From contig NC_088711.1 in NCBI RefSeq assembly GCF_963576615.1, positions 25,142,182 through 25,206,181 of the forward strand: 64,000 nt of DNA, given 5' to 3'. This DNA is from Watersipora subatra (lineage: Eukaryota; Bryozoa; Gymnolaemata; Cheilostomatida; Watersiporidae). Below, piece by piece: positions 953 to 62,993 of the stretch. Each line of letters starts with the position of its first letter. Within the stretch, counting starts at the first letter, position 1. Made by a program: the position numbers and the translations under genes. The notes under the pieces are model-generated. The model was not told the origin of the DNA. It searched no databases and saw only the letters and a list, made by a program, of their open reading frames with translations.

Positions 953-3900
953 TTAGTATCTAGTAGTTGAGGCTGAGCTATTTGGAGGGTTGTTCACAAC
1001 TGATGTGGGAGCGAAGTACCCGGGAGGAGGAGGAGCTAAACAGAAATATACATGTACGTTAGAAAAAAAGAATTACTGACACCCCACCCTAATAAGGAAG
1101 GTCCCCTTTGTTACCGCTAAGTTGTCTAGTGATCCAACACAGCGTGTTATCAGTGATTCAGATTACAGCCAAGAATTTCTCATGTTGATTTGCATAATTG
1201 CCCAACACTGTTTCCAAATATCGCTAACATGTCGACAATATGTTCAAATATTTAACTGTGTCATGTGTGATTTGACAGTTTTTCAATTAGTCTCAACAGT
1301 ACCCTTCTAGCTTTAATAAAATAAATAGAAAAACCACATCTCATCTGTCATCCTTGCTAATGAAACTTGGCAACACGGCTACCATAATAGGGAAGTTAAC
1401 AAAAAGTTGAAAACTACAGTTTATGTCTGCGCTTGAGTTTAAACTATAGATTGTTTCTAATGATCCTGTTGTTTATGAAATTATAAAAATAAATAAACGC
1501 AATCATTAATGCTTTTCCTCCATCCATTAAAATGTCTGTAAAAGTTACCCATTTGAGTAAAGATTCCCTAATCAACAAATTAAACTCATGAATATGACAA
1601 GTGGAATAACCAACAACTGGCCAGAATGTGAAACAGCTAAATATATTGCTTTTTAAAACATGTGAGAACAGTGAAAGAAGGAATGGTTATGGATTCGTGT
1701 CACATAATATTCTACTAATGCATCTTTGAGGAAAGCAAGATAAAAACTCGTGTTTTATATATCTTACCCGATTGTGGTATAGCTGTGGAGGCGCTATAGG
1801 GAGGAGGGGTCGGGAAGTTTCCGGTAATTGGTGGCGGGTGCTCTTGGAGTCGTCCATATGGCACATTTGACTGATGAACGGTAACAGTGGTTGTGGCAAC
1901 CTGCCAAATGTGCACAGCGTAACTAGTTTATCAGGTCATGCTATAAACACTTGCACCAAATATGTTATCTATTTTTGTGCCCGTTAAAAGGTATGTCAAA
2001 CTCTCGAAGCATAGGCTCTGCCAACTTAACAAAGTGATGACACTCGAGATGTTATATCTGTCTCTAATAATTCAATCAATTTGAGGCAGTGCCACAAATT
2101 AGGTCTCTTGACAAAAAAGGTTTTATCCGGGTAATTTAGCAATTTTAGGGTCATTGCTATAACTGACCTCATCAACAGCTATTGTGTACACTGCCGGTAC
2201 TAGTATCTGCTGCTTTCTATAGAAAGCAGCAGATACTAGTATCTGGTCTCATATCAACATGTTTTTTGTCATTATGGCTTGTCTTCTCCCTCATTAGGAA
2301 AGTCATTTCAGCGGAGCTGAGCTGGCGCTTTTAACAAGAGCATATAGAAAATGGCTTACCCTTCTCAATCGCACTCTGTAGGTGTAACGGCGAACCCTCC
2401 AGGTGATTAGACAGACCTTCAGTCCAACACCAAGGATGCATGCGACAACAATAATAGCAACGGTGCCTCCAGATAAGCCTGAGAAAAATACATTGATTGA
2501 TGTTATACCAGACCTGTACACACCGTGTAATACATAAAAACGCTAGTACTCAAGTTGAACAAGTGTTAAGAGGAACTAATCTTCACTTGTGCTATAATAG
2601 CCAACTCCGTTAAGCTTTTCAAGGTTCCTATTTCATGCATGCTGCTCGACTAGTTGTAATAGAAACTTACTAGGTCAAGGCCATGTCCTACTAGGCTCAA
2701 CTGCCATTGAGTAAATTAACTAGGAACAGATTATAATAAGACACAATGTATGGCTGTTAGGTAAACTACATTTCCCTAGCAGATTTGAATATATTACTAA
2801 AACTAATTTTAGATCGTTAACTTTTTAACTTTTACTATTTCTGTAGGTGCCACCTTTCTAGACTAAGACAAATCTTCACTATAATGAGAGACGCCTCCAT
2901 CTGAAACCACATTGAGGTTAGGAAAAGAAAGATTGCTTTGAATAAGTTTCCAACTCCCAACTTTCAGTTTAGTACAGCAACACTTTACCACTGACACCTG
3001 ACAATCTCTCACAGAGCATCAGGATGCAAGATACTAGTAATAATCCAGCTAGATATGCGCTTATATATGATCGCCTAAACATACAGAACTGCCAGAATAC
3101 TACGGAAAATTTTAGTGAATATCTGACTCTAAACTTGAAGTAATATCTAAGATATGGTGCTAGGAGTTTCTCAAAAGTGAAGGTAAAGGAAAATGATCTG
3201 AAGCGAGTAGAAAGCTCGAAAGTTAATATGTGAAAAATATAAAATAAAGAGATAAAGCGACTATGTAATAAACTAAGTTAGTTTAAAGCTTGCATGATTG
3301 AAGATAGGGGAGGCTCTGTAAGCTCTGTCATTAACTCTACCCGCACCACAAAAGCTTTACCAATGTTCCCTTGCCTCGCTAAGTACGTGACACCAAAAAC
3401 CTTCTTATTCTTTCTTTATTAGTTTAGCTTTTACATTTCTCTCACATAAGCTATTGCTTTTACTGTCATATGCAATTATTTGCATTATCTAGAGAGGAGT
3501 GATCAAGCGGTGAAATAAACTAAATGAACCATAGTGCATACCTATAGAAACATTTAACCCGATACATGACAGTTTCAACAAACCAATCATAGCCTAGAAT
3601 AAGTAAAATTCCTATATAATGGTTGAACAGTACAACAGTTAGGATTAGCTCTACGATGTTTCGAAATGTGTAATGAAATGTATAGCATGTGTAATGACGC
3701 AGACCTAATGCATCAGCCTAAAATATAACAGTAGATTACCATAATTTCGTAACACGCCTAGATTTTATATTTTAGCATCTGAGGCTAGGTTATGGCTAAG
3801 AATGAAAGTAGTTATGGCTAGGAATGATGGTAATTAATGGGAAGCGTGTCTGTCGACTAGTATGAAAAATAATCTATCTTCATGCTTTTTGACACAGATA

Positions 3901-6900: not shown

Positions 6901-7802
6901 AACACGTATTTACTAGTATCAGTAAGCAGTCAATGAACACGTATTTACTAGTATCAGTAAGCAGTCAATGAACATGTTATTACTAGTATCAGTAAGCAGT
7001 CAATGAACACGTATTTACTAGTATCAGTAAGCAGTCAATGAACACGTATTTACTAGTATCAGTAAGCAGTCAATGAACATGTATTTACTAGTATCAGTAA
7101 GCAGCCAATGAACACGTATTTACTAGTATTAGTAAGCAGTCAATGAACATGTATTTACTAGTATCAGTAAGCAGTCAATGGACACGTATTTACTAGTGTT
7201 AGTATTCTACACAAGCTCACTCACCATAGTCGTCATCATAATAATCTACAAACAGAACAGATATATCATTGTATTATCACATATCAGGTTTTATTGATGA
7301 GTATTTATTTCATCAGTCCTCTCCTCAACTGCTTAGTATCATCGGTCCAATATCGGCTAATCTCATCAATAAGTTTTCAATATATCCTAATTGATGTCAC
7401 ACATAATCGAAGTTATCTCCTTGATATTATTCCAAAAACAGTCTCAATATCATGTTCTGTGCCTCGTCTAATCGCCGTCATCTACTCTGAGTTCAGCGCT
7501 GCATTAGCCACACAGCAGACATTTCCCTAGATATCAGATTCATGATGAACAAGCGCAGCAGATCTCATTCCTATCTTATCACAGCGTAAGCTATGTACCG
7601 CAATATCTCATCACTTTGTGATTCAGCTCCTGATAACACCTCCCTATCCTTTGACAACGCTATGTACCCTTATATCAGATATCGTCTTGAAACGCCTATT
7701 TACCTGGTTCGGCGGTCCATGGGTCGAAGGGATCGTCAGTCCGTGGACTCCAAGGGTCAGTCAGAGGTCTCCATGGGTCAGTCACAGGTCTCCAAGGGGC
7801 AG
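953..7802 (-). CDS. Gene C: Shisa/CYYR1-like single-pass membrane protein (N-terminus not found)
   Basis: Five exons chain in frame: 7704-7802 (phase 1 to 1), 7225-7245 (1 to 1), 2360-2478 (1 to 0), 1768-1900 (0 to 1) and 953-1035 (phase 1 to stop TAA). All junctions are AG/GT, with strong donors GTGAGT, GTAAGC and GTAAGA. In order the protein has a Trp/Pro/Asp repeat segment (DPWRPLTDPW), an acidic tyrosine run (DYYDDDYG), a membrane span (GGTVAIIVVACILGVGLKVC), a basic stop-transfer stretch (TWRVRR, then RVRLRR), and a Pro-rich tail with TPPPYS and PPPPGYF. PPxY-type motifs in STMC6-type adaptors bind WW-domain proteins such as Nedd4 ligases; that role is inferred here. Signal peptide and Cys-rich exons should lie above 7802, possibly beyond the NHL gene. 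The 4.7-kb intron holds three minisatellites. The tail exons match the plan of genes A and B. Confidence 0.75.
2198..2241. repeat. 44-bp perfect palindrome
   Basis: The two 22-nt arms are exact reverse complements with no spacer, centred on CTATAG between 2219 and 2220. It lies inside the gene C intron between the transmembrane and tail exons. No flanking duplication is obvious. Confidence 0.9.
4208..4465. repeat. 35-bp minisatellite
   Basis: About seven copies of a 35-bp unit beginning TAATGTGTATTTGCTGCCAT. It produces two overlapping minus-strand ORFs that are repeat artefacts. Confidence 0.95.
5384..5503. repeat. 10-bp tandem repeat GAAAGGTTAT
   Basis: About 12 near-perfect copies of GAAAGGTTAT. 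Two adjacent copies carry the same G-to-C change (TCAAAGGTTA), showing local copying of a variant. Confidence 0.95.
6743..7203. repeat. 35-bp minisatellite
   Basis: About 13 copies of a 35-bp unit containing AGTAAGCAGTCAATGAACAC and GTATTTACTAGTATC, with interspersed variants. It ends about 20 bp before the donor side of the gene C micro-exon. Confidence 0.95.
7225..7245 (-). CDS. Gene C 21-nt micro-exon
   Basis: Acceptor GTTTGTAG and donor GTGAGT enclose 21 nt in phase 1 to 1. Joined to its neighbours it reads D-YYDDDY-G immediately before the membrane span. An acidic, tyrosine-rich juxtamembrane patch could carry tyrosine sulfation, which is inference. Skipping the exon would keep the frame, so it could be a cassette exon. 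Confidence 0.6.
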
Positions 7803-9959
7803 CTTAAATAGGCAAATGAAACTAATATATGCAGTAAAAACAATTTTGTTTGACATTTTTTATATTACCCAAACTTTTTGTTACGTTTATAGAGAGTGCA
7901 TTGTTTACATCTCGAGCAAGTCTGGTTAAAACAAGTTATTAGCAATCTCGGTAAAACCAGACCAGATAATGACTTTCATAATGTTGCATATGAATGCCTC
8001 ATTATGAAAGTACTATCATCACTAAGTTTCCATGCTTTAAGTGGGTTTGGAGTTGCCCGCTGCCAACGAATGCGCTTCCTGCCATTCTAACGATTCAGAG
8101 TTGCGCTACATTGTTCTTTCCCAGATTCACGATGTATCCCTTAAAACGCAACTTGTTAATGTAGACGCGAGTTGGAGGTCAAGGTCACTTTTTAATTAGT
8201 GCGTAGTCAACTAATTGCATTAAACCAAAATAATAGATCACAATTGATCGCAATGTTAAATTCTTTTTACCTCCACTTGGGAGAGCTTAGCCGGAAATTA
8301 TCGATTTAGATCCATCAGCAGTGAGCGTTTCCATGATGAATAGTGCTCACACAGTAAGTGCCTTCGCACAAATTTAGTGAAGCAAAATGACATTGAATGC
8401 GTTCGAAGTTTACCATTTCCGTGATTCACGGTAGAAACAACTCCAAAGCTATTTGACGCATAGAAATGCAGTGCGTATGAATGACTAGGGAATAGCTACA
8501 AAGAGAGCTTTGGACTGCTAGAATACCTCTTTGCTGTCACTATCAAAGTTATCAATTGTGACTTGTCATTCAAAGTATTCGATTGAGCTCAAGTTCACGG
8601 CAGTGTTGAAACGCATGCTGACCCAAGCCTCAATAAGCGGCTACCTTGTTACCTACCAACTACGCTGTATATCAGAGCCAACCTAAATTATCTCAAGTTA
8701 TCTTCTTTCGTTGAATCAATAATAAACTCACTACGCCGCTAGATTGGGAGGGTTTGCCATCATGTTTGCGCATCTTTGAGAAGCAATACTCATTCGGTAG
8801 ATTACACAAAAATACCTCTTAAAGTTCAGTTTTTCAAGCCGGCAGCTAACATAACCAACCGGTCTTTAACTGTTAAGTCATTGCAGAAACAAAGAGCTAT
8901 GTTAAAAGAATCAATTAGGTAAGTTCCAAATTTTTCAATTTTCAGATAATGCATATGTTATATGCACGAAATATGCACTAGTAACATTTCTGTAAGTCAA
9001 TTATTCAAGTTAAAACTTCTGTTGATCTAAATCCAATAAGTCAAATTATAATAGAGCTCAAACAATCATATACATACGAGTAGTGTAGACTCCAGTTGTG
9101 GTTTCTTTCTTTGACCCTGTATAAAACAAGGTGATAAGATCACATCGATGTTACTATAGAAGTTCTCAGGCTACTTTTCACAGTCAAACCTTGACATACC
9201 GCATTATCCTTTGCGAAATTTTTTTATGTCTAAACTATTGTACATGTATGTTAAGCAAATTATTCTTAAAAACATACTGTATTTTTTATTTGCTCCACAA
9301 CTCAAAAGACAATGATAAGTACTTCAAATAATTACATATTGCATTAAAAATTGCAATATATATAAAACTATGTAAAATTTTTATGTAAAAAGCTAATTTA
9401 TTTAATTAAAACTAAATTAATGCAGTAATAATTAATAAAAATAGAAAAAATAATGGAGCTACATGAAGTAATTTACTCCAATATACTTGAAATTAATTTA
9501 ATTTACACATTTATATAAATAATATGCTACACTTTTATTTGTAGTTTTTCACGTTTACTCACAACATTGTAATGTTTTAGGAACTTTTGAACGTCGTATG
9601 TTGAAAGTTTTTAATGTCAGGTGCAATATTAGTTACAATTCTAAGTACAAGTCAAATAATCAATATCCAGAAGTAAATGTAAGTCGAGGTTTGACTGTAT
9701 CCGTCAGCAACATTGTTTCAGAATGGTCAGCCATAGGATCATCATAAAGATGATTGTAAAACTGCTATTTTTAATTGGACTACTCAATCAAAGCGATATT
9801 TAGTAAAATTGCTAAAGAGCTATAAAGAATAGTAGTACTAACAGGAACAAAGTTCTTTTGGTCAACTAGTGCCTAACTAGTGCACAAGCATTGATCAACG
9901 GGTGGCTGAGCTCATGCAATTACATTTATGAATTAAACTCACAAACACATTCTGTATTC
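7803..9959. other. No gene recognised between gene C and the NHL gene
   Basis: Anonymous A+T-rich DNA. The missing 5' exons of gene C may lie here, but none could be supported. A short inverted repeat, ACTTTCATAATG at 7972-7983 against 8000-8011, is present. ATTAAA on the minus strand near 9770 could serve the NHL gene as a poly(A) signal. Confidence 0.4.
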
Positions 9960-11142
9960 CTACCAACCTGGAGTTGTGAAACTGATCTTTGTGATTCTCG
10001 CTTCGTCCAGATCACTGTCGTAATCGCTGCCGATGTATAAGAAACCATTGATAACGGCCACAGCGCTGGGTCGCACCAGTGTGCACTGAGGAAGCCCCCA
10101 ATAAAAATAATCTGTGTCATTACAAATGGTAAAGTTGCCATTTTCTTGCTTGTAGTCGATGAAGGTAACCATCCCACTGTCGATGTTTGTCACGATAAGT
10201 ATGCCATCAAAAAAAGCAACTCCAAAGGCATCAGCCATTTTTGTTTTAGCGATATCACGACTACCGTCCGCAGAAATATTCATAATTTCATTGCTTTGGA
10301 GAACAGCGTAGGAATTGGATAAACCGTCATATGTAAAACTGTGGACTACTTCTCCATGTGTACTAATGTTAACTCTAGCATTAAACTGAGTTTCATAGCT
10401 TGATATGATCACATATTTTTGATCAGTAATCAGCATGTCAAGGATGAAGGTAAAGCCACTCCGTGAGTCATAAACCATTTTTGAAGGTTTATTGAAGGTT
10501 TTCATGGGTATATATTCATCAGGGCTATAGTAGTGAGAGAAGTTGCACGCTCCTGCATATGCCTCGACATAGCCTACATCTCTAAAGAGTACCCTCAGAC
10601 ATTGATTGTTCTCATCGGCAATTAATAGGCGGGTAGACGAAAGTTGAGCAAGTCCCGATATTCGATTAAAACGGGCATCCTGAGCGGTACCATCGGCGTA
10701 GCCACCCTCTTCCTCATATCTACTTCCAGCAATACGCCAGACAGAACCATGCTCATTCATCCTGAAGACAGCATTTCCAGCAGCAATTAGAACAAAACCT
10801 TCATCATATTGATCTTCTTGTATTTCTGTAATCGTTGGCAAGTCATCGCGGTGAACAGAAAAGTAATAGTGGTTGACCTTCGAACCAACTTCTGCTCTTC
10901 TCCAGGCACGAACTTGCCCACTGCTACATGGATGAGACAAAGATTTAATATCAGCAATGAGTGACGTTACAGGAGGTACTACAAACATAATGATGTATTT
11001 TGCTACCTATCACTGCTTAAAACATAGATGTATGAGTATAAGCACTATGTAATACAAATACTACATGTTAACGGTACACACCTTCCCAGCAGTAGAGCAG
11101 CTCCGATATATAATAACAACATGTTCAACTCTGCCAACACAG
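9960..11142 (-). CDS. NHL-repeat (six-bladed beta-propeller) protein
   Basis: The main exon, 9960-10923, encodes about 320 residues and ends in TAG. It splices in phase 2 (acceptor CATCCATGTAG, donor GTGTGT) to exon 11082-11142, which contains the start MLLLYIGAALLLG, a plausible signal peptide or anchor. That gives about 334 residues. An NHL blade is clear around residues 85-126 (GGYADGTAQDARFN, then LLIADENNQCLRVL). Weaker blades follow, including the C-terminal VRPSAVAVINGFLYIGSD. Asn-x-Thr/Ser sites (NIST, NISA, NDTD region) suit an exported protein. NHL propellers bind proteins or RNA, and this one is probably extracellular or lumenal. The stop overlaps a weak donor (CCAG/GTTGGT), so a further exon cannot be excluded. 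The exon at 11419-11487 may add an N-terminal extension. Confidence 0.8.
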
Positions 11143-16039: not shown

Positions 16040-16043
16040 TTAA

Positions 16044-17083: not shown

Positions 17084-17119
17084 CAATATGTCAACATAAG
17101 TTTTCAAACCAATCTTTAA

Positions 17120-27277: not shown

Positions 27278-27363
27278 TCAGATGATCATCGAGACATCAT
27301 CCTTCTCATTGGCCAGATTATACGGAGGAGGATCTACAGAGGCTCCTAGACTGCCAACACAAG
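27278..27363 (-). pseudogene. Orphan duplicate of the gene A terminal exon
   Basis: 86 coding nt with intact acceptor (TTGTGTTGCAG), reading frame and TGA stop: DPPPYNLANEKDD then VSMII. It is the unit A copy of 41502-41587. No transmembrane or tail exon lies upstream of it within unit A. At least four of the five differences from the unit B copy change the protein (P/L, S/N, T/A, P/S). The shared P in gene B supports unit B as the conserved state. It could be a dead exon or a very distant alternative 3' exon of gene A. Confidence 0.7.
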
Positions 27364-50500: not shown

Positions 50501-53500
50501 TTTGCCCTCTCGTGTGCTAGGGATTATTTCTAGCTACAATATTATGAGCAGCAGATAATACTCACAGCGACTATTTGATACAGGCGTTCCTTGCTGTTTC
50601 GGTGTGTATGCATCTTCCTGCATCCGAGCGTATGGATGACGACCTTGAGGCGCCCTTTGGTTACTTACGGCTGAAACTTCTCTAACAACGACTACTCTTC
50701 TCTGTCGCTGCAATGAACAACCAAGCAGTTTTAAAAAGCGTAAAACTTTTATTTCGAAAAATCTAAACACAGTTCAGATTCTTTGTAGGCCTACAATGCA
50801 TCGACAGCTAAACTTATGAAAGTATGATTTACATTAAGTATGAAAACATTAATGAAATTTCAGTATTGGACTAAGTATTGGAGCTACTTTAACGACATTG
50901 TGAAACAAGCTCGTCGAATCTGGCATTAAAATCAAAACATTCGCTTATTGTTTATCACTAATCAACTAATTTGGGTAACCCTTTATTTTCATGAATATAC
51001 TTCTAATGTTAAAAGTGCCAAAAAACTTCTTTGCAATCTGACACACCTTTCATGTTTTGTGTGTTGACGAATTTCAACTCACGAACCAACATAAAATCAT
51101 TAATTATATTTTGCATATCGTCATGGATGTTGATTATACTACTGAATCTTGCACGATTTTGAAACTAGAAGGTCGCTACATTTTCTCTTCGGAAACGCTA
51201 AACAGGTATTTGACCAATGGTAAAGTGAAAACAACATTTTAATTTTGGTAGCCTTTGTCTATATCAAGCCATTTAAGGAAGTCATTTCATATGACATCTA
51301 ATTCTGTGTATCGCTAAATGTCTAAAATTTAAATGATGACTGCAAAATTCAAGGTCAGTAGCAACAATAGAGGATTCAACTTTGTGTGTCTATGAGCTGT
51401 CTTTATTGCTTTGTGATGTTACGGCTATTTTTGGCACAATAGGGCCGATATTTCAAAGCTGTCTTTTATCCACGAGCCATATTTTCTTAATAGGATCGAT
51501 TTTTCCAATTGAACTAATTGATGTCATTTTTGATTGAGGCGTCGACAGCTCATGGCTATATTTTTATCGATTTTTTAATATATCTGCCTTGTCAGTAAAA
51601 TTTGTGGCACAGGTAGTGGTTTATTGAGCCAATGCCATGAACCGAAACAATAACTCAAAACATCTTTGAAGCAAAATCTGAAATGTGTAGTGAGGCCTTA
51701 CAATGGCATATTGGAAACAAGTTCAGTTTGCTTCAGTTTGTAATGCACTCTCCGAAGGTTTCTTAGCGCGTGAGGTAAATTGGCCTTTATGCGGCCGTCA
51801 TCACTTTTGAAACTGTATATTATAGAATATATTGGGAATACGAACCATTTCCAATTCCTCAATGTTCTTCACATTTCTCCAAGTTCTACTGGTAGCTACA
51901 TGTAACCTTTGTTTATATTCTCTTGTGTATACATAAGTGGGAGATTCTTAGAAAATCTTGTAAGACACGATATAGGGTTGCTAGGTGTACTTTATAGTCT
52001 AGACGTACTGCAGCCCATGACCAGACAGACAAAACGGCAGCAGATTTAGTTCTAGCCTGCAGCTCTCTGCTGTTACCAAAAGATGTGTGTATAAGTAACT
52101 ACCACCTGTGGCTATTAATTGCTGACAATTACATTTTCATATATAAAATGCATGTAGGCACTCTATGGTTGTGCTTTGTTAAACCAGCTGTCAAGCGATC
52201 AAAATCTACTTGGCATAAGTATTGTTATCTATGGCGGCTCTAGAAACTTCCTTGACCTTACAGGTTAATTGCATTTAATGAGGAACTCTAGCGGACAGAC
52301 GGGATCGGACAGACGTGATCGCTCAGTTGTGGAAGGGTACTAGTACTGGCGTTGCTCCTTCTACTAGCACCAAGATGTTGAGAGACTGATGAGCTGACAT
52401 TATCGATGAGCTATGGAGTGCCATTTGTAAAATTTTGTGATATCCACAATATAAAAACTTTTTAGTATTTAAGTTCACATGTTTAATAAGTGAAAAATCA
52501 TGCTTAGTATGCTAACTTACATATTTAGTGTGCCAACTTACATGTTTAGTATGTGAAAATTCGTGTTTAGTATGTCAGTTCACATGTTTTATATGGCAAG
52601 ATTCATGTTTAGTATGCTAATTTTCATGTTTAGTATGTGAAGATTGGTGTTTAGTAAGTCAAAATTCATGTTTGGTATGCTAACTTTAATGTTTTGTATT
52701 GCGAAACGCGCATGTTCGCTATTCCGCTGCGATCCTGTTTGATATGCCAATACGCATGTTTGTTATTCAACTTTTATTTTATATGCGATCTCCTTTTTAT
52801 TACATTTCGAAGAAATGCTCCTAAGTCAATCGCGCCCTGTTTTACACGTAGCCCGCGGCCCATCGATAAATAGTTGGCAAACGTGAAGAATTTCGATCAA
52901 TAACCCTGGGGAGCGAAGACACTATAGCGAAATTTCCTCACTTGCGTACATCCGAAGCTAGCTTTGCCACACTCATTTAATAGAAAATTCTTTCAAATTC
53001 AAAAGTTGCTTGACTTTGAAAAAATGTAAGAGTCAAGATTCTATTAAGACTCAACTTTCTATATATGTGATTTTTTATCACAGCAAATGAGTATTGTAGG
53101 TTACTGTTCTGTTTTGTAGTAACAACGACGTAGAGTTCTTCAACGACCTTTTTTATAATATATTGAGGAAGTTAGTTATTAGATATTATTAAAAGTTAGA
53201 TAGTTATTGAGGAATTCTCCAAGTTTGCCAACTATTTATCGATGGTCCACGGGCTACGTGTAAAACAGGGCGCGATTGACTTAGGAGCATTTCTTCGAAA
53301 TGTAATAAAAAGGAGATCGCATATAAAATAAAAGTTGAATAACAAACATGCGTATTGGCATATCAAACAGGATCGCAGCGGAATAGCGAACATGCGCATT
53401 TCGCAATACAAAACATTAAAGTTAGCATACCAAACATGAATTTCGACATACTAAACACCAATCTTCACATACTAAACATGAAAATTAGCATACTAAACAT

Positions 53501-54892
53501 GAATCTTGCCATATAAAACATGTGAACTGACATACTAAACACGAATTTTCACATACTAAACATGTAAGTTGGCATACTAAATATGTAAGTTAGCATACTA
53601 AACATGAATCTTCACATATTAAACATGTAAACTTATATACTAAAAAAGTTTTTATATTGTGGATATCACAAAATTTTACAAATGGCACTCCATAATGAGC
53701 TGACATTATCAATGAGCTGCCAACAGGCCAAGATGATTGGTCTAAATGCATTAACTGGTTATATTTCAAAGCGTGTTCTAGACCGATTCCTCACACGAAC
53801 CCAAATTCATTTTACTCTTAGCTAATTTTATCGTTAATGTGTTAATCATCGATTACTTAAGGTTTTTCTTTGAGTAAAATATAGCAATGTGCATGCTGGA
53901 CAGACACCATTGGCATCACAAATTGTTAATGATCCATATTCAAAAATCAACACGTTCATGACCAGGTAATGAAAAACCTAGCAAGGACATCCTGACATTG
54001 TTGTTTAGTGCTAAGGCAATGCTATATTGCCTTAGCATTCATTATGTTACTCGTTGAACGTTTGTGCTCTCTAATAACAACCGGTGAAACCATCCCTTCA
54101 CCCAAATGTTTCACTCCAGCTGTCTATTTATACATTGAATGGCTATCTTGGTCGTCAGTTACAAAGCCTTGCGGACGTGCTAGCTCTTAAGGTCTGTTTA
54201 AACCAGGACAATCTATCGATATATCGGAGTTATGTTTCTACTAAGAAAGTTGGAATTGAAATGGCTTCTAGTTTGTTCTTGAAGACTTGACTCCAAACCA
54301 GCACCCACTACGACTACACAAAATGGATCAACTTTTTTAGCTTTAGATGAAATACAACGTCAGTATAACATTTGCTGGTAACATTACAGGATATGATTGG
54401 TCAATTTCATGCTGTAATTCGTTAATGACGGCTATCAAAATCAGGCTGTCAAATGGTATGCAGCATTTCACCGATTCTGTGTCTGTTGCTGGTACAAAGA
54501 TTTTTGATAACCATGTTTCATTTTGTATCAAACAGACTTTGTCGGCCTGGAAGGGACTCCAATAAATCGTTCTGGTATAAATATATTTTTAATAATTCTT
54601 ATTGTTGCTATTGAGCAATATGAATTATGGGGTGTATCAACCGAGCAATAGTTTGACAGTAAGATAAAGCCTGTAGTTTTAACTATTGTTGAAAAAAATT
54701 AAATACCATCAGGAAGGGGTGCCTTTGCTAGGACTAAAGCTAAACGGCTTATATTAAGTTGAACTAGATATTGGGAAGTAGGTTGTCACATGAGAACTCA
54801 CCGCTGCTTGACGCCAGTAGCTGCACCTCCATACCCAAAAAGCGATTTTGAGAGGAATAAGAATGATAATTGCAATAATCCAATACTCCATT
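41502..54892 (-). CDS. Gene A: Shisa/CYYR1-like single-pass membrane protein (5' incomplete)
   Basis: Three exons join in frame: 54802-54892 (91 nt, phase 2 to 0), 50566-50707 (142 nt, 0 to 1) and 41502-41587 (86 nt, 1 to TGA). The first encodes a membrane span, MEYWIIAIIILIPLKIAFWV, then WRCSYWRQAA. The second is a basic then Pro/Gln-rich tail: RQRRVVVVREVSAV and GRHPYARMQEDAY. The last ends DPPPYSLTNEKDDV then PMII, with a PPxY motif. Donors are GTGAGT and the tail-exon acceptor is CATTGCAG. Homology to gene B is clear (LIPLKIAFWVW against LVPLKIAFWVW; NEKDDVPMII identical). The intron of about 9 kb before the last exon contains most of duplication unit B. An internal GTAAGT in the tail exon could act as an alternative donor. 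Role as a WW-domain-binding membrane adaptor is inferred from family architecture. Confidence 0.75.
43075..43310. repeat. 18-20-bp degenerate tandem repeat (unit B)
   Basis: Counterpart of 29020-29310: GACACATGGCTATATC-type units. Copy number and order differ between the units. Confidence 0.85.
44190..44562. repeat. 30-bp minisatellite expanded in unit B
   Basis: Twelve copies with an exact 30-bp period: AAAAGTAGCCTGACAGAGTA plus ACCAAGGCCC. Unit A has one copy (30200-30230). Overlapping minus ORFs (GYSVRLLLGL and similar) are repeat artefacts. Confidence 0.97.
45049..45178 (+). mobile_element. tRNA-derived SINE (unit B copy)
   Basis: Matches 35435-35575, with A-box GTGTAGTGTAGTGGTTAGT and tail CTCTTATTATAGTAAAA. 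Confidence 0.7.
45349..45868. other. 520-bp segment present only in unit B
   Basis: Bounded by the direct repeat ACGCTA. In unit A the flanks are joined (near 35688). It is either an insertion in B with a 6-bp duplication or a deletion in A through microhomology. No ORF of note. Confidence 0.65.
47692..47832 (+). mobile_element. tRNA-derived SINE, best-preserved copy
   Basis: A-box TGGTGTGGTGGTTAAAGTGC, B-box GAGTTCAAACCC, body with CAGATGGACGAACCC, and tail GCTCTTATTATAGAAAAC. It is absent from the aligned part of unit A. Confidence 0.75.
48601..48853. mobile_element. 253-bp MITE private to unit B
   Basis: Imperfect TIRs CCTTCGTTTTTTCGTGACG and (complement) CCATCGTTTTTTGTTACGTC. The empty site in unit A (near 39030) shows its exact limits and a possible AT duplication. 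Confidence 0.8.
49022..49115 (-). mobile_element. SINE fragment ending unit B
   Basis: Minus strand B-box GGTTTGATCCCC, body GGACAGATGAACGGACAAAC, and tail CTCTTATTATAGCAGAC. Equivalent of 39207-39302. Confidence 0.6.
49121..50210. other. No gene recognised
   Basis: Unique intronic DNA of gene A. A diverged inverted repeat is visible: GATTTGGTTTGCTGGTTTAGGTGA near 49577 against TCACCTAAATCGATAAACAAAATC near 50086. The two arms are about 520 bp apart, suggesting an old TIR element spanning about 49530-50140. Confidence 0.45.
50211..50392 (-). CDS. Unidentified terminal-exon-like ORF
   Basis: An open 59-codon frame ending in TAG, richer in G+C than its surroundings, with non-repetitive protein-like composition: LVTGQVHVMIACAVLDGSNE and REMLVRYGQPDETDFSFRF at the C-terminus. 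Possible acceptors (AATAG at 50393; GATAG further in) both leave phase 1, the phase at which gene A's tail exon ends only about 170 nt upstream. It could be an alternative proximal last exon of gene A. Equally it could be a gene fragment, since an adjacent ORF in another frame (MIHLFKLRANQATVGFIKS, from 50479) may be part of the same frameshifted sequence. I do not recognise the family. Confidence 0.35.
50708..52412. other. Gene A intron, no exon recognised
   Basis: Anonymous A+T-rich DNA between the tail exon and the foldback element. Confidence 0.5.
52413..53693. mobile_element. 1.28-kb foldback element with repeated subterminal motifs
   Basis: Arms of about 470 bp (52413-52884 and about 53219-53693), starting ATGGAGTGCCATTTGTAAAA. 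They surround an unrelated spacer of about 335 bp. Each arm contains an irregular array of about 20-bp units (CATGTTTAGTATGCTA). Outside both ends lies the same 24-bp direct repeat, ATGAGCTGACATTATC followed by RATGAGCT. There is no transposase. It sits in the gene A intron. Confidence 0.88.
54009..54037. repeat. Short hairpin
   Basis: A 12-bp perfect stem TGCTAAGGCAAT/ATTGCCTTAGCA with a 5-nt loop. It lies in the gene A intron. Confidence 0.7.
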
Positions 54893-55460
54893 CTGCTTTG
54901 AGGTTAGTTTTAACTGCAATAACAAAAAAGAAGGTGGGCAAAGATGATCTGTGAAGGGATTAATGAACTATCCCTGATTGCCATTTCACACACAGTATGC
55001 CATCTCTCCTTATCAACGCTATAAATAAAAATTATTTCAATTATGCTATACTCTCCTATGGTTTTATGACACTAAAAAATCCTGTAAAACTACTGAGTAG
55101 AAGACAAACAGGAGCTGTTTTACTAGTAATTTCACTGCATCTATAATAGACACAAAAGCATTTCCACAAATGTAGGGCTGTCCTTTGTTCCGTATTGCGT
55201 CAAGGACAAATAGAGCCTACCTTCACCGATGATGCTGTACTTCTTCCTACGACCTTGCTCACCGTTACTGCAAACGCTACGCAGGCTTTATCAAACACGA
55301 GGTTATTGGGCAGGTTTGTTTACTCATTTTTTGTCCAATGAGGATTCTCCTTCACAAATTCCACGTGTCTATATTCAGAGGCTGCTATGGCAAGAATGAC
55401 CCATAGCATAGGGAAGTGCTACCCTTTCAGTTAATCGCCTGCAATGAACAACAGAGGGTT

Positions 55461-55510
55461 CCATAGATATAGTAAACCATAGATAAGTAAACGGTTTACT
55501 ATATCTATGG
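55461..55510. repeat. 50-bp palindromic mini-insertion
   Basis: Inverted 18-bp arms CCATAGATATAGTAAACC and GGTTTACTATATCTATGG with a 14-nt loop. It is flanked on both sides by AGGGTT, like a target duplication. Confidence 0.75.
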
Positions 55511-56634: not shown

Positions 56635-56797
56635 CTAATAGGAGTTAGTTTGTCTAATAGGAGTTGGTTTGTCTAATAGGAGGGTGTTGGTCTAATAGGA
56701 GTTGGTTTGTGTAATAGGAGAGTGTTGGTCTAATAGGAGTTGGTTTGTGTAATAGGAGGGTGTTGGTCTAATAAGAGTTGGTTTGTCTAATAGGAGT
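56635..56797. repeat. 19-bp repeat with 38-bp dimeric order
   Basis: Two 19-bp variants, TAATAGGAGTTGGTTTGTC and TAATAGGAGGGTGTTGGTC, alternate to give a 38-bp higher-order unit. Confidence 0.9.
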
Positions 56798-57619
56798 CAT
56801 AATAAAAAATGGCAATGAGCGGTTATCCTTTTCTTATATGAGATCAACAGTGTGATATACTCCTGTTGCTAAGACTTACTTTATGTAAATTCATCTCAGC
56901 CTTATTAGAAAATATTACAAGCTGTTCACTAAATGTTTTAGCAATTTTAAGCAGCATTTCTATGCATGGGTCAGGAGCAGTTAACCAAAGAAAATGAGAA
57001 CGTTGACCAACTTTCAAAAAAGAGCAGGCGGCTCTTTAAACTGCGCAAACACGTTATCGTGGTTTTATTGAGTTTATAGATCAATACAATAGAAATTATT
57101 TACTCAGATTATTTGGTAGATAGTTTGTGGATGTTTACTAGCTTCGAGCAAGGTTTATCTTTAGCCTAACTTTTATAAGTTACTAGAAGTAAGTCCAGCA
57201 ATGCTCATGATTTCTTCTACTTGAATGCAAAGTGCCATATTACTTTCACGACAGCAATCTATGAATGCGTTTATTGAAGGCAGTTGTCTTTTTATGCATG
57301 CAAATGTACATGTTTGAGTTTTTAATCAAATATATTGTTTCGCACTTATATGAAAAATGAAAGTTCTAAGATTGCCAATTTAGCCCGAGATTGCTCGGAG
57401 TTGTCCCACTTTTTCACATTAAATTAGCCGCAGGTAATACATAGAGCTCTGGCAGTCTGCTCTTATAACTCTTCCATCCCGCGAGAACATCGCAGAAGAC
57501 TGATCTTATTATAGTAAATGTTATTCTGAAAATATAAATGACGGGTGGAATGGCCCTCAGTATCGTATGCTCGATGTCAAGAGTGTCAGCCCTGTATGTA
57601 GTAATCTCACTTTAATTAC

Positions 57620-57699
57620 CTGCGTTGTATTGAGAGCTTTAAAGGATGTGAAGGACAGGCTGCATGCCTACATTTAGCTAGCTGGCATGCAGCATTCAT
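57620..57699 (-). CDS. Weak candidate Cys-containing exon of gene A
   Basis: Minus-strand open stretch MNAACQLAKCRHAACPSHPL ending phase 2 at donor CGCAG/GTAATT. Phase 2 is what the gene A transmembrane exon (54892) requires. Three cysteines fit an extracellular Cys-rich segment. The start acceptor is unclear and the region contains a GCATGC inverted repeat, so chance is quite possible. Confidence 0.2.
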
Positions 57700-57953
57700 G
57701 CTATACTTACTGATAAATAGACATTGTCAAAACTCAAAGTGAATCTTATGAACATCAATATGTATTATAAATACGTATGTTCAAGCTAGCTGAATATAAC
57801 AACGCAGGCAAAAGACAATAGAATCTTTTTGTCAGTCAGCTGGTTTGCAGTAGTCTGAGAACTAGTTCATATAAGTTATTATCAAAGAGTTACAACTATT
57901 TATGTGAGTGCTTAATATAGTAAGCTCTGTTGTACATACATGTACATGTTTGT

Positions 57954-57959
57954 TTTATT
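57954..57959 (-). promoter_or_regulatory. Candidate polyadenylation signal of gene B
   Basis: AATAAA on the minus strand about 185 nt beyond the gene B stop. The spacing is similar to that in gene C. Confidence 0.35.
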
Positions 57960-58140
57960 TCAGTTAAAGAAAAAACAATTTATGCGAATTGATTTTGTGG
58001 CACTGCAGTTTGTAGAAATAGAATTTGTAACACATTGTTATAATTCGCAACGGAAACAGAAAAGAGTGAAGAATAAATATCACATTAATATCAAAATATA
58101 AAGAATAGAAAGCAATCAGCGCGCAAACACGTGTCATCCG

Positions 58141-61100
58141 TCAGATTATCATTGGCACGTCGTCTTTCTCATTGTGATAAGCAGGTGGGGCGTCGACAAA
58201 TCCAGATGATGAGCTCCCAACAGAATCTGTAAGTCAACAATATATGCATGGCTGAGGCTAAGCTGTATGGCTGCATAAAGAAAGGTAAGTCTGAGTGGAG
58301 GACTAGAAAAAGTAGGAGCGATCAATCGTATCAAAAAGGCTAACTAAAGTCATGGCTCAGTTAGTTTGAAACAACTAGAAGGAAGTATTTTGATCTGATC
58401 AAACAAAGGCGGCTAGCAGAGGTGCTCTTATAGAACAAAAATGGCTATCGAGGCTGGTACACACTGTCACCGGATGTCACTGTTAATCACCCAGTACTCT
58501 GGTGATCATCTCTAATAACAACGCTCAAACTATCACAAACTTATCCATCTTTACATCAGTGAATAGCCCACGCAGTATCATTCACATTATACAATGCAGT
58601 CGTGAAAACAATAAAAAAAAGTTAGTCCAGCAGCAACTATCTTGGAAGAAAAGATAGATCAAGCCGTCCGTGACGACCAATCACCATCGCCAAGGGCTGT
58701 CACGAATGTTCAGCAGACTATCGGGAAAGTTTGACAGCTGCAATCTTTCCCGACGCATCCCAGTGTTGCCTCGACGATGCCATCGGCTAACTGTGGGCAT
58801 AGTCGACGAATAATTGGTGAGAGTACAACCCCAACATGCGGTAATAGAGTGTGAACCAGCCTTTGGTTAGCTGTGCCAGAGGATTAATAATTCTAGGCTA
58901 TTTAAATAGAGCTTTTTCCTCCATTGTAGAAATGACTAGGAGCTTGCCAGCTATTTAGCAGCTGACTCTGAATCTATGAGAATTGTTATCCGTTTATTAA
59001 TTCTTTCTCCACAGAATTTTTGCTCGTGTTGACAAATTAAATCATGCGAAAAAGATGTTTGGTAAAATGACAACCCACTTTCCTAAATTTATTGTGGCAA
59101 TATTTTGCATAAATCTGTTAACTCTCCGACCCTAGAGGTACTAAGTCGAGCTGTTTTAAAGGCTTTTCATGGAGAAAAAGTTACGAGAGAACTTACATCT
59201 CCTTGACAGCCTACTTGCAAAGGGGCTAGGGCTATTAAAACCTAACCTACTCTAACAAGAGAATTAGAAATAGTTTATACAGCGTCTTTACCATAAAATC
59301 CTGTTTGGAGCAAGTTTGTTAATAAGGTATGACATCAATTGCCCTCCAGGAGTTGAAAAACCAAGGAAAGCATCCACAATGTCAATACTATACTAGTCAT
59401 TGACCTTATCACACCTGCTCCTATCCTTTTATTAAAATGCATGGACACTAATTTTATACATACAATAAGTTCACAAAAACACAATTATTACTCAGGAAAG
59501 TTAGGGACCTTTTTATTTGCTAATTAAAGTTATCCAGATAGAATTTAAAGAGTTCATTATCTTGGTGGTGTTCGGTATTTAGATAAACAGAGTTTGAAGA
59601 ATTTATTGTTTTGGTGATGTTATTTAAATAAATAATTATAGTAAAATAACTATTCCAAAGCACAAGTTTTGTTTAACATTCAATAGATTGCTATGCAAAT
59701 GTGCGATGACCTTCCTTGGAGAACTGTCAATCATGTGACAGCCATCTAAGGAAGGTCATCGCACATTTGCAAAACAATCTATTGCAAAGCAAAGGAAGGT
59801 CATCGGTCATCCCAGATCATAGGATTTTAGCAAATGAAGTGAAAATTGAAAATCAAAACTCAAGCACTGTCTAGCCAGTAAAATGCCTTTTTGAGAATGC
59901 CCTTCAAACACAATAGGTAAACAATATTAATACAAATATTCAAAGTGAGTTTATCCCTGACGTAAACAATAGTGTGAAGGGTGCGCTCTCTATGCTGGGG
60001 TGTCATTGAAAAAAGAGCAGCATGATGCCAACATGCTTGCTTAATGAAATTGAATTAGTTTTTGTCAGAGTATTGTATAGAATTATTGAATTATAAAAGT
60101 ACACCGTAGATACTGTAAGATATCTCCATCTATAACCATATATGATGAAAATGGGACTTGTCCTTTCTTGCTACAACAAGTTATAACAGGAGAAGACAAG
60201 TATACACTTTGGCTTCTTTGGTCTTTTGTGAAGAATATGAAAAAGTACTTAATACACCACACATTATACATAATCGATAGTTACTTTGTCATATCTATAT
60301 TGTGTAATAGTGTATTCAAATCGAATAAAGTCATACTTAATCTGTATAATGTCACATTCATGCCATAAAGTATAATATTTTAATAATTCTAGCAGCGCAT
60401 GAAAGCTTTATACATGACAAAGTCGAACTACTCACAGGTAAAAAGAAGCTAAAATTGCAGCCTCTCACTACAAGCTATCTTAACCGTACTGTAATACATG
60501 TCTTCATACGTATAATTGTACATGTTACAGTCATATATTAGATAATCTACGTGCGTTCAAATATTATCTTAACTAGAAATACAACTACACATACTTGACT
60601 CCTTGTCCTTTGATGTCTTTAATAACAAAAAAATGTCGTAAAAATGCCAAAGTTTTATTAATTATGGATGTCTCTGATTTCAATCTCTCAAACAACATAA
60701 CAGATGTTTACAGTCAGGCAGAAACATCATATAACTAAACTGTAGACCACTATTTAATAAATGAACATTTTAGAAATATTTAGAAATATTTTAATTAACT
60801 GCTTATGGTTTTAGTCAGGTATTCTTTGCTAACGATGTGTCTACATGAGGTCTAAAAGTTGTAGTAACTTTTGTTCTTATATACATACATGTATACTATA
60901 TACAATATATATATATATTGCGACAAGTTGACGCCAGCTATGTATGCAGAATTTTCCTCTAGTAGTCGACTGTTAGCCTGCATGTATTATGCTTAGCTAT
61001 CCTAAGGACAAATGGCTGGTACACAATGAATAAAGGCAGCCAGCGTGTTTGTCTGATAGCCATTTTCTTAGCAAGTATTGATTTTTGTCAGTGGCGATAA

Positions 61101-62993
61101 AGATTGATATAACAACAGCCATTGCATTGATGTAACCAATGCTAGTCAGCTAAAGGGTCCAACAAATGAATAGCGAATGACATGTATACTCACTATTAGC
61201 TGGTGGGAGTCGGTGGTATGGGTGCTGAGCTTGTGGCTGTACACTCACTGCTGGGTTTGTCCTAACAATGATTATCCTCTGATGTCGCTAAAATGAGAAA
61301 TAGAATAAAAGTATAGAATGATTTGGTTAAAGATCATGTAATAGAAGGCCTACTGTATCTAGAGATGTTATGCAAGTGGAATGCTAGCGACAAATTGAGG
61401 TCTGTTTTGATTAACCTTAAATAAAAATTTAGTCAGTAAATTTTGATTATGATATTGGTGTCAGACCTGTATCAAATGAGAGCATAGGTCAAACAAGACC
61501 ACATTAATGCTAGGTTCAAGCATATTTTTATACATTAGTTTTTTTTACAGTGTTTTGGGCATAAATAAAATTATTAGCATTGACAGGTTTTGAGAGAACA
61601 AAATAAATACATATGCTAATCAAGATAAAGTTTTCTATCATTCATAAGTTATTTGTACATCAGCTAGTGGCTGTTGGACTCAATAAACCTTGTCAGACTC
61701 AGAAAAGTGACATCAAGTGTACTGATTGACTGAGACATGTAACTCTACACAGTCTGACTAACTCAGACAGGTCGGTCTACACACACACCGGCATACTCAG
61801 GCAAGTGTCTCTACACACTCTGACTCAGACAGGTGACTCTACACGTGCTGACAGACACGAACGGACGGGTGACATCAAGTGTACAGATTGACTGAGACAT
61901 GTTACTCTACACATGCTGGCAGACTCAGCCAGGTGACACCAAATGTACTGATTGACTGAGACAGGTGACTTTACATGTGCTGACAGACTCAGGCAAGTAA
62001 CTCTACGTATGATAACTGACTAAACAGGTAGTGAAGAGATGACAGAGAGGGGAGAAGAACCCTTTAGGTGAACGCTATAACGCAAGGAGCCTTTTAATTA
62101 CTTTGATTATATAACAAGAGTTAGTCATAGATCCGTCTCCGTTCACAGTTCAACCTCGACATAGAAATTACTTGTTCTGAGATCTTCTTTGTATGTTCAA
62201 GTTATTGTATCTTGTTGCAAATTTTCCATAGAACTACACTGCGGTTTTCTATTTGTTTCGCATCTCAAAACCTTACGGTAACTCCTTTAAAATTTGAAAA
62301 GATTCAGCAAGTAATAATACATAATTCTAAAATAAATGTGTTACATAGAATTACAGTATGTAAACAAACTCAATTAATAAAGCAATAAACAATGACAAGA
62401 AATTTTTATTGCTACTTTACCTTATAGACATCGCTTTTATATAATCAGCCTCTTTTAGGAGATAAGGCTATGGATGTTGCTATTGATAAGCCGAAGACCT
62501 ATTAACCAGCACTCTACACTATGGAAAATCTGTGAACGTATATTGAATGGTTCAGTGCTTAACTCGATTGTTTAGATTCTGCTGTTTAGGAACTTATGCA
62601 AAGTTTCCTATTATCAATGCTGTTTGCTTTGTTGAAAATTCTTAGTATTGGAAGCATTCAACTTTCGCTCTAAAAAACATTTCTGCGTCACAATTTAGCT
62701 CTATGATTGACACTAAAATCATACAAAAATTGTGTTTGTCAAAATGTTAGCCCAGCCGACTGAATGATAGAACCTATATCTGTTTACGATAGGTAATAAC
62801 AGCAAGCTTTTCTCTATAGGTAAGATAGCGATATCTTGGCAGAGTTGAGGATTTAGCGAATCAGGAAGGAAACTGAAGGGACCTCTTTACTGTAAAGCTT
62901 ACCCTTTGATGGCAAATGTAGATTCTCCAAACCCAGAAGGCAATCTTGAGAGGCACCAACACCGCAATGAGAATGATGTACCAATAATCCATA
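58141..62993 (-). CDS. Gene B: Shisa/CYYR1-like single-pass membrane protein (5' incomplete)
   Basis: Three exons join in frame: 62903-62993 (91 nt, phase 2 to 0), 61194-61287 (94 nt, 0 to 1) and 58141-58226 (86 nt, 1 to TGA). The membrane exon reads MDYWYIILIAVLVPLKIAFW then VWRIYICHQR. The tail exon reads RHQRIIIVRTNPAV and QPQAQHPYHRLPPAN. The terminal exon ends FVDAPPAYHNEKDDVPMII and carries a PPAY motif. Donors are GTAAGC and GTGAGT; acceptors are CTCTCTCCAG, ATTTTAG and TTACAG. Exon lengths and phases match gene A, so the two are tandem duplicates. The signal peptide and Cys-rich exons lie further right, probably outside the window. Function as a PPxY adaptor for WW-domain proteins is inferred. 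Confidence 0.75.
58451..58862. mobile_element. MITE with AGGCTGGT termini
   Basis: 412 bp with 15-bp TIRs matching 14/15 (AGGCTGGTACACACT; right end AGTGTGAACCAGCCT). Internal sequence is related to 56195-56592 and, in reverse, to 36130-36713 and 46320-46903. There is no coding capacity. It sits in the gene B intron. Confidence 0.75.
58863..61193. other. Gene B intron, no exon recognised
   Basis: Apart from the inverted repeat at 59681-59783 and a short TA tract near 60905 this is anonymous DNA. Confidence 0.5.
59681..59783. repeat. Inverted repeat (about 38-bp arms)
   Basis: CAATAGATTG, GCAAATGTGCGATGACCTTC and a further CTT are mirrored by AAGGAAGGTCATCGCACATT, TGC and CAATCTATTG about 30 nt later. 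It lies in the gene B intron. A further partial direct copy of the arm (AAGGAAGGTCATCGGTCATC) follows at about 59793. Confidence 0.85.
61690..62010. repeat. Irregular tandem repeat, about 32-36 bp
   Basis: Degenerate units such as CAGGTGACTCTACACGTGCT then GACAGACTCAG, with a longer superunit containing GACATCAAGTGTACTGATTG. It lies in the gene B intron. Confidence 0.75.

Follow-up and report, generated by a model that had tools for sequence, protein, structure and literature searches.

The STMC6 or Shisa-like proteins (CYYR1, WBP1, WBP1L, VOPP1, and Shisa) are characterized by an ectodomain that is described as a six-cysteine C*C*CC*CC domain (PMC5578492). One of them, CYYR1, is reported to recruit WWP1 to late endosomes via its PPxY motif (PMC11399591). 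Commissureless and PRRG4 are short, cross the membrane once, and carry L/PPxY motifs to which Nedd4 binds, and the Comm proteins are presented as lacking extracellular cysteines (PMC5578492). Among endocytic signals, YxxPhi and [ED]xxxL[LI] are stated to be bound by AP2 (PMC3655264).

We analyzed a stretch of 64,000 nucleotides from the bryozoan Watersipora subatra (contig NC_088711.1, positions 25,142,182 to 25,206,181 of the forward strand; hereafter the window), in which a sequence-only reading had placed an array of three Shisa/CYYR1-like genes, named A, B, and C. Our best explanation, which we hold at a probability of about 0.57, is that the cluster comprises one complete receptor-like gene (C) and two tail-only relatives (A and B), and that the tails recruit endocytic and ligase machinery.

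Exon anatomy of the cluster

We found three sets of exons, all on the minus strand (Table 1), with the matching intron phases that had been reported for them: the membrane-span exons end in phase 0, the tail exons run from phase 0 to phase 1, and the terminal exons start in phase 1. Each gene encodes one span and a tail with PPxY (PPPY in A, PPAY in B, and two such motifs in C), which supports the proposed local cluster of single-span membrane proteins with PPxY tails. The 86-nt terminal exons and the C-terminus NEKDDVPMII are likewise common to A and B. Gene A has in addition a second terminal exon at 27.3 kb that is absent from the sequence-only reading. The stalk, span, and tail of the three genes sit on exons of 21-142 nt, and such genes can for this reason escape ORF-based annotation. 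The exons that mark the two ends of this range (21 nt at 7245-7225 and 142 nt at 50707-50566) exist, but the earlier description of the whole array as consisting of such short exons, hidden from ORF prediction, does not extend to the main exon of gene C, which measures 953 nt and is visible as a 348-aa open frame.

Table 1. Predicted coding exons of genes A, B, and C, in window coordinates.
Exon	Position	Strand	Content
Gene A, first coding exon	54802..54913	-	112 nt with outer acceptor; ATG 54891, membrane span, ends phase 0
Gene A, tail exon	50566..50707	-	YARM; 142 nt, phase 0 to 1
Gene A, terminal exon (proximal)	41502..41587	-	PPPY, NEKDDVPMII; 86 nt, starts phase 1
Gene A, second terminal exon (distal)	27278..27363	-	PPPY, NEKDDVSMII; acceptor and stop kept
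Gene B, first coding exon	62903..63014	-	ATG 62992, membrane span, ends phase 0; outer acceptor uncertain
Gene B, tail exon	61194..61287	-	YHRL; 94 nt, phase 0 to 1
Gene B, terminal exon	58141..58226	-	PPAY, NEKDDVPMII; 86 nt, starts phase 1
Gene C, coding exon 1	11082..11122	-	signal peptide MLLLYIGAALLLG; ends phase 2
Gene C, exon 2	9968..10920	-	NHL beta-propeller ectodomain; 953 nt, phase 2 to 1
Gene C, exon 3	9078..9116	-	stalk (SKKETTTGVYTT); 39 nt, phase 1 to 1
Gene C, exon 4	7704..7802	-	WRPxTDP-repeat stalk; 99 nt, phase 1 to 1
Gene C, exon 5	7225..7245	-	DYYDDDY; 21 nt, phase 1 to 1
Gene C, exon 6	2360..2478	-	membrane span; 119 nt, phase 1 to 0
Gene C, exon 7	1768..1900	-	tail, YGRL and PPPY; 133 nt, phase 0 to 1
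Gene C, exon 8	953..1035	-	terminal exon, PPGY, stop at 953; starts phase 1

As read from the sequence, gene C consists of eight exons (window 11122-953, minus strand) that join in frame to 1488 nt and encode 495 aa, with every intron running from GT to AG. The protein begins with a signal peptide and continues through a four-cysteine NHL beta-propeller ectodomain, a Thr/Pro stalk, and one span to a tail with the motifs YGRL, PPPY, and PPGY; its signal peptide and span, together with its charges, suggest a type I membrane protein. Several of its splice scores are weak, namely those of exon 2 (acceptor 1.8, donor 1.3), the donor of exon 3 (-1.0), and the acceptor of exon 7 (0.3). An earlier in-frame ATG for exon 1 is possible at 11164. 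When 134 kb were scanned for TM exons on both strands, the single candidate was exon 6 of gene C, under criteria by which the corresponding exons of A and B go undetected. Scans of tRNA and Rfam models gave no match.

The ectodomain of gene C and its relatives

A search of PDB sequences with the ectodomain of gene C returned an NHL match (SOQ1, E 7.3e-7), and Pfam NHL scored 17.5 bits, below the cut-off of 20. The structural model of the ectodomain is all-beta (pTM 0.76, mean pLDDT 72.5), and the best Foldseek matches to it were propellers, headed by NHL domains, at E values of about 1e-10 to 1e-9 and TM-scores of 0.5-0.7 to the query. These included the NHL propellers of SOQ1, TRIM71, NHLRC2, and teneurin, and also propellers of other kinds, such as virginiamycin B lyase. 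We regard a beta-propeller as the predicted fold of this ectodomain. Cysteines 121, 139, 280, and 293 are invariant in an alignment of nine, and the propeller may be stabilized by disulfides.

Elsewhere in the genome, gene C has 43 other matching places at E 0.001 or better, which may point to a large, uncharacterized surface-protein family in Watersipora subatra. A second gene (on contig C6), whose exons were joined by eye, contains an NHL exon, a stalk, a TM exon (phase 1 to 0), a PPPY tail exon (phase 0 to 1), and a PPSY terminal exon that starts in phase 1. Its tail donor is weak (-4.0), and no signal-peptide exon was found within 1.4 kb upstream. Following NHL relatives about 10 kb downstream revealed a TM exon in three of six and a TM exon together with a PPxY tail in one of the six. 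One relative (L022) matches Pfam NHL at 26.4 bits, above the cut-off, and the relative closest to gene C (L012) matched no Pfam family, NHL included, at E 0.1. A genome search with the TM and tail of gene C gave five matches, three of them its own exons and two at E above 3.6. The latter two were rejected as relatives of this part of the gene: L049 has a frame with a membrane span and without PPxY, and L050 is without a C-like frame.

The architecture of gene C, in which a protein with one span combines an NHL propeller with a tail of endocytic and ligase-recruiting motifs, differs from that of the Shisa-like proposal. Membership in STMC6 (Shisa/CYYR1/WBP1/VOPP1) is contradicted for gene C by its NHL propeller with four cysteines and without C*C*CC*CC, and we consider it very unlikely that the array as a whole encodes proteins of this type. 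One span with a PPxY tail would agree with such an assignment, as would weak Pfam CYYR1 matches to the TM and tail of gene C (10.1 bits at E 1.1, where the cut-off is 31 bits) and of the contig C6 gene (E 0.19, 12.6 bits). Against this, no STMC6 model of Pfam matched A, B, or full-length C; the only families matched by A were two unrelated ones (E 0.98 and 2.7), and B had no match. The cysteine-rich exons that had been anticipated next to A and B did not appear either: in a scan that misses intron-split patterns and covers unspliced frames for A and B, C*C*CC*CC had 0 matches in the minus-strand frames of 54893-58140 and 62994-103900, and also 0 matches in unspliced minus-strand frames of 950-11130. 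Two half-patterns were seen, CC..CC at 91098 and another at 10785, which lies within the NHL exon but not in its reading frame. Cysteine-containing frames at 54.8-58.3 and 62.9-74.0 kb hold 3 to 9 cysteines, many in tandem repeat, and none of them could be fitted as an exon.

Genes A and B and their relation to gene C

Comparing A with B, we obtained dN 0.37 and dS 2.8 over 87 codons, and their differences fall on first, second, and third codon positions 31, 21, and 50 times. Judged by this pattern of substitution, A and B go back to an ancient duplication of coding sequence and are under purifying selection. It is extremely unlikely that their exons represent conserved remnants, whether pseudogenes or chance open frames, a view for which one could cite the weak splice acceptors in B and the duplicated distal terminal exon of A, which differs from its duplicate by dN 0.068 and dS 0.054, without sign of constraint. 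Such remnants are hard to reconcile with synonymous change near saturation at the given dN, with the identical NEKDDVPMII of A and B, and with GT/AG sites and stops that have been kept.

The membrane exons of A and B had been described as 91 nt long. The TM segments that they share (54892-54802 and 62993-62903) are present, but the exons probably start further out, at acceptors with which an in-frame stop comes to lie ahead of the ATG; this start is good for A and less sure for B. In gene A, the outer acceptor scores 10.0 versus -1.3 for the inner one, and in gene B the outer scores -0.5 and the inner 1.2, with another outer candidate at 63028 scoring 4.1. The in-frame stop lies at codon -7, upstream of the membrane-exon ATG, in both genes, and each ATG is preceded by A at -3 and followed by G at +4. 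Since this stop is found in both genes and only the outer acceptor of A scores well, A and B most likely start at the membrane-exon ATG, B less surely than A. With the outer acceptors, a second frame is also open in the two first exons, and its phase does not match the tail exons. The products would most likely be membrane proteins of 105 aa (A) and 89 aa (B) without an ectodomain, and their charges suggest an outside-in orientation.

It is also conceivable, if distinctly improbable, that A and B use their inner acceptors to join distant ectodomain exons and are either complete receptors or the alternative 3' termini of a single gene upstream. The inner acceptors (54892 and 62993) leave an open frame, in phase 2 in each case, and the inner acceptor of B, which outscores the outer one, has to be retained as a candidate because exon 7 of C, an accepted exon, has an acceptor of only 0.3. 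Moreover, an exon scan gave a cysteine-free candidate at 102276-102118 (score 16.7, phase 2 to 2) that is in phase with this inner acceptor, and weaker candidates that also end in phase 2; the scan was trained partly on the exons of C, its control on C is not independent, and the sequence to the right of B was covered up to 104 kb. The acceptor scores of A, the stops at codon -7, and the contexts of the ATGs argue against such an arrangement. So does a tblastn search of 134 kb with 15 NHL frames and C, in which no NHL exon was found upstream of A or B and only exons of C were matched, and so does the lack of a full cysteine pattern in the 3.2 kb before A or the roughly 40 kb before B. Genome searches for relatives gave seven matches for A (five window exons and two at E above 2) and five for B, all within the window.

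The proteins of A and B each contain YxRPhi and a single PPxY, and they end in DVPMII, which resembles an acidic-dileucine signal. Among shuffled tails, YxRPhi arises in 5-9%, PPxY in 4-19%, and [DE]xxx[LI][LI] in 0.6% (A) and 4.9% (B), and PYxR[LM], which is evident in the tails of A, B, and C alike, in 0.08-0.28%. The tail of A aligns with that of C at a score of 73, compared to 32 +/- 6.5 for shuffles, of which 0 out of 1000 reached 73. These similarities suggest that A and B are homologous to C. We find it unlikely, but a serious alternative, that A and B are ordinary adaptors, evolutionarily unrelated to C, whose phases and motifs were acquired independently under the same functional demand. 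In line with an independent origin, the likeness of B to C is weak (its score was reached by 18 of 1000 shuffles), B and the contig C6 gene are no more alike than background (254 of 1000 shuffles), and the TM exon starts in phase 2 or is non-coding there in A and B, compared to phase 1 in C. The score of A against C speaks for common descent instead, as do the agreement of the TM-end, tail, and terminal phases between A/B and C, the common PYxR[LM], and the fact that the three genes adjoin on one strand.

Proposed function and comparison with known systems

Under our preferred reading of one receptor-like gene with two tail-only relatives, we infer that A, B, and C most likely function as membrane adaptors that link Nedd4-type ligases and clathrin adaptors to cargo. 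Their PPxY motifs would bind the WW domains of Nedd4-family ubiquitin ligases, and YxRPhi and DxxxII would bind clathrin adaptors. C would then be internalized together with whatever ligand its propeller binds, and A and B would work in trans by delivering the ligase and the endocytic machinery to cargo in the membrane, for example receptors of the NHL family. More tentatively, and with considerable doubt, we speculate that A and B are ectodomain-less 'micro-receptors' that arose from a family of NHL-propeller receptors bearing an endocytic/ubiquitin tail; they would consist of span and tail only and would internalize or degrade propeller receptors in trans, with the duplication of the last exon offering a choice of C-terminus. 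Such micro-receptors would be the tail-only counterpart of decoy receptors, and tail-only paralogues, if true, would offer evolution a simple path to trafficking adaptors that act in trans.

Like A, B, and C, the STMC6 proteins have one span and a tail PPxY; they differ in that C has an NHL propeller in place of the six-cysteine domain and that A and B apparently have no ectodomain. Commissureless and PRRG4, likened to A and B by description, are also short single-span proteins with PPxY, and A and B are much shorter still. Adaptors of the PMEPA1/LDLRAD4 type have isoforms that begin near the span and PPxY tails that bind Nedd4-family ligases; compared with these by description, A and B end in DVPMII and carry YxRPhi. 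Among the literature matches listed, which included a teneurin-3 paper and an HIV proteomics study, none concerned a membrane protein with both an NHL propeller and a PPxY tail. The NHL-propeller proteins (SOQ1, NHLRC2, TRIM-NHL, and teneurins) have the propeller fold predicted for the ectodomain of C, and in teneurins the NHL propeller also lies outside the cell; in comparison to these proteins, C would be a small type I protein with an endocytic/PPxY tail.

Gene model and ectodomain of gene C

We found that the membrane, tail and terminal exons proposed for gene C by the sequence-only reading are present and join in frame in one gene model. A 348-aa open frame upstream on the same strand is, we think, part of the same gene. 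The eight joined exons give 1488 nt without a stop, and all introns are GT...AG. By a simple splice scoring made for this analysis, weak values were obtained for exon 2 (acceptor 1.8, donor 1.3), the exon 3 donor (-1.0) and the exon 7 acceptor (0.3); the remaining eleven sites score 2.9 to 6.3 (exon 1 start excluded). An exon scan that weighs codon and splice scores together, with part of its training taken from gene C itself and a minimum exon length of 45 nt, returned seven candidates over 900-11500. Four of them correspond to exons of the model: exons 4 and 6, exon 7 in a shortened form, and an exon ending at 11082 that includes the signal-peptide ATG. The other three have no place in it. 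Neither the NHL exon nor the two shortest exons were listed over this range, the latter because they fall below the scan's minimum. Scanning both strands of 134 kb for TM exons, with criteria that miss those of genes A and B, gave the TM exon of gene C as the sole candidate.

The predicted protein (495 aa) has a signal peptide, an NHL domain, a Thr/Pro stalk, one span and a tail with YGRL, PPPY and PPGY. Because the stalk exon is a tandem repeat, stalk length may differ between individuals. Against Pfam, NHL scores 17.5 bits, below the cut-off of 20, and a PDB sequence search returned the NHL domains of SOQ1 (E 7.3e-7) and TRIM2/TRIM3 (about 1e-3). Modelled from nine aligned relatives, the ectodomain is predicted to be all-beta (pTM 0.76, mean pLDDT 72.5), and Foldseek gave 1016 matches to this model at E 0.001 or better. 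NHL propellers (SOQ1, TRIM71, NHLRC2, teneurin; E about 1e-10 to 1e-9) make up most of the top rows, which also include propellers of other kinds; virginiamycin B lyase, one of these, ranks fourth. Cysteines 121, 139, 280 and 293 are invariant across the nine-sequence alignment and there are five N-glycosylation sequons, as expected for a location outside the cell.

The window is AT-rich, with abundant minisatellites. In the flanks examined (30 kb left, 40 kb right), open frames L002-L004 on the left converge toward gene C. They contain a span SSTFVALIAIMGVILGVIIILAAIYFGHSE and a Pro/Ala/Thr repeat tail and look like a further membrane protein gene or genes; three pieces of these frames gave no Pfam match at E 0.1.

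Coordinates of the genes and of neighbouring features, in window positions
Feature	Position	Strand	Remark
Gene C, exons 1 to 8	11122-11082, 10920-9968, 9116-9078, 7802-7704, 7245-7225, 2478-2360, 1900-1768, 1035-953	minus	exon 2, NHL; exon 4 (stalk), 21-nt tandem repeat (WRPxTDP)
Gene A, TM, tail and terminal exons	54913-54802, 50707-50566, 41587-41502	minus	
Gene B, TM, tail and terminal exons	63014-62903 (outer acceptor less certain), 61287-61194, 58226-58141	minus	
Open frames L002-L004	~1.5 to 28 kb left of window	plus	
Inverted pair	15160-16044 / 17115-18002		~890 nt, 90% identical; possible mobile-element arms
Tandem segmental duplication	24616-39300 / 39341-49118		non-minisatellite blocks 82-92% identical
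Distal copy of gene A last exon	27363-27278		
Ty1/copia-like element span	30586-35005		
Fragments of this element	32566-34462	minus	separate open frames
Direct repeats flanking the fragments	30586-30816, 34774-35005		~230 nt, 86% identical
Inverted repeat	52412-52904 / 53203-53694		494 nt, 96% identical; 21-nt minisatellites inside
Candidate exon	102276-102118	minus	38 kb right of window

NHL relatives elsewhere in the genome

Searched against the genome (784 Mb, 239 contigs; window at C4:25142182-25206181), the full gene C protein has matches at E up to 1 in at least 86 places, five of them its own (a lower bound, with 86 of 123 candidates scored). At least 48 reach E 0.001 or better, including 43 outside gene C. 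Many lie on contigs C6, C5, C9 and C10. Numerous NHL-domain frames of ~330 aa occur at C6 46.9-57.8 Mb, at C10 8.3-14.3 Mb and on C5 and C9; some adjoin low-complexity open frames, and several (L014, L015, L017-L021) appear by eye almost identical despite lying megabases from one another. When six NHL relatives were read ~10 kb downstream, three had a TM-exon candidate (L036, L037, L038) and three had none in that distance (L039, L041, L042). Two of the six, L036 and L039, contain PPxY in forward frames; L039 has it once, in a short frame that lacks a TM exon.

The closest NHL relative of gene C is L012 (27% identity), of which L036 is the continuation. Joined by eye, this C6 gene has a stalk exon, a TM exon running from phase 1 to 0, a tail exon from 0 to 1 with PPPY, and a terminal exon that starts in phase 1, contains PPSY and stops after 17 full codons. 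The exon plan so predicted is that of gene C. Acceptor scores in the C6 gene range from 4.0 to 7.1; the tail donor, at -4.0, makes the last junction uncertain.

Genes A and B

The joined exons of genes A and B encode 105 and 89 aa, 56% identical. Over 87 aligned codons dN is 0.37 and dS 2.8 (near saturation), with 31, 21 and 50 differences at codon positions 1, 2 and 3, from which we conclude that A and B are genuine paralogues of old date, kept by purifying selection. The exon scan ranked the gene B tail exon first in its stretch and did not list that of gene A; a genome search with both found no credible relative elsewhere.

The sequence-only reading had taken the 91-nt TM segment for an internal exon and suggested looking for Cys-rich exons upstream. 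In gene A, the inner acceptor that this requires scores -1.3, versus 10.0 for one 21 nt further out, from which the frame meets TAA at codons -7 and -5 before reaching ATG; the corresponding sequence of gene B carries TAG at codon -7 ahead of its ATG. Around both ATGs, A occupies -3 and G +4, a favourable start-codon context. Neither a full Cys pattern nor an NHL exon turned up in the 3.2 kb preceding A or the ~40 kb preceding B. On this evidence we read both genes as encoding predicted membrane proteins that begin at their span, with strong confidence for A and fair confidence for B. The gene B acceptors score -0.5 (outer), 1.2 (inner) and 4.1 (at 63028, also outside the TAG), and the inner one keeps some plausibility since the accepted gene C exon 7 acceptor scores just 0.3. 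The exon scan lists upstream of B, to the right of the window, a candidate exon (score 16.7, phase 2 to 2, LLPVVSSRILKESFLPDVKALQVDLKKLALERSTLIQSMIKDTESKIGEDNS) whose phase permits joining to this inner acceptor; it has no cysteine, and we tentatively take it for part of another gene. In the same scan the outer exons are also open in a second frame, running from phase 1 to 2 in A and from phase 2 to 2 in B, which is incompatible with the tail exons.

Relationships were assessed with 1000 segment-wise shuffles. Against the TM plus tail of gene C, gene A scored 73 (shuffles 32 +/- 6.5; none of 1000 reaching 73) and gene B a weak 49 (reached by 18 of 1000). The C6 gene scored 61 against C (1/1000), 49 against A (3/1000) and 30 against B (254/1000, no alignment signal). 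Phases at the TM end, tail and terminal exon are identical in A, B, C and the C6 gene; the TM exon start differs between A/B and C. Homology of A and B to C is likely on these comparisons. PYxR[LM] is common to A (YARM), B (YHRL) and C (YGRL); of their shuffled tails, 0.08-0.28% contain it. For the looser YxRPhi this share is 5-9% and for PPxY 4-19%; taken singly, the motifs are therefore weak evidence, and the argument lies in their joint conservation. The C6 gene has RYTR and no YxRPhi. DVPMII at the C-terminus of A and B fits [DE]xxx[LI][LI] (0.6% of shuffled tails for A, 4.9% for B), a motif that gene C lacks. The YxRPhi motif resembles YQRL of TGN38, and DVPMII resembles DERAPLI of LIMP-II.

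The tandem duplication includes the last exon of gene A, not its tail exon, and its two copies differ in the length of a 12-nt minisatellite (8.4 versus 15.8 units). The distal last exon keeps its acceptor, PPPY and stop, reads NEKDDVSMII and shows no constraint (4 nonsynonymous, 1 synonymous differences); it could be an alternative last exon or a relic. The element that we take to be Ty1/copia-like occupies the gap where the left duplication copy does not align with the right.

Predicted functions and known PPxY adaptors

The functions proposed here are predicted from sequence throughout. Gene C would encode a surface receptor or scavenger internalising ligand bound by its propeller. A and B would be membrane-anchored adaptors placing ligase and clathrin adaptors beside cargo, which, as a guess, might be C or other NHL proteins. 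AP2 binds YxxPhi and [ED]xxxL[LI] (PMC3655264), CYYR1 recruits WWP1 to late endosomes via PPxY motifs, and NDFIP, ARRDC and WBP1L are adaptors for Nedd4-family ligases (PMC11399591).

The sequence-only reading had proposed STMC6-type (Shisa/CYYR1-like) PPxY adaptors. STMC6 proteins have a C*C*CC*CC domain following the signal peptide (PMC5578492); gene C lacks it. Pfam CYYR1 scores 10.1 bits against its TM plus tail (cut-off 31), and a Pfam search with A and B gave no STMC6 match; STMC6 membership is not supported on these grounds. Against the TM plus tail of the C6 gene, CYYR1 scores 12.6 bits (E 0.19). The likeness to PPxY adaptors stands, and by analogy A, B and C would work like them. An NHL-propeller membrane protein with a PPxY tail was not found among the matches listed in open-licence papers; the genes described here would be of the PPxY membrane adaptor/receptor type.
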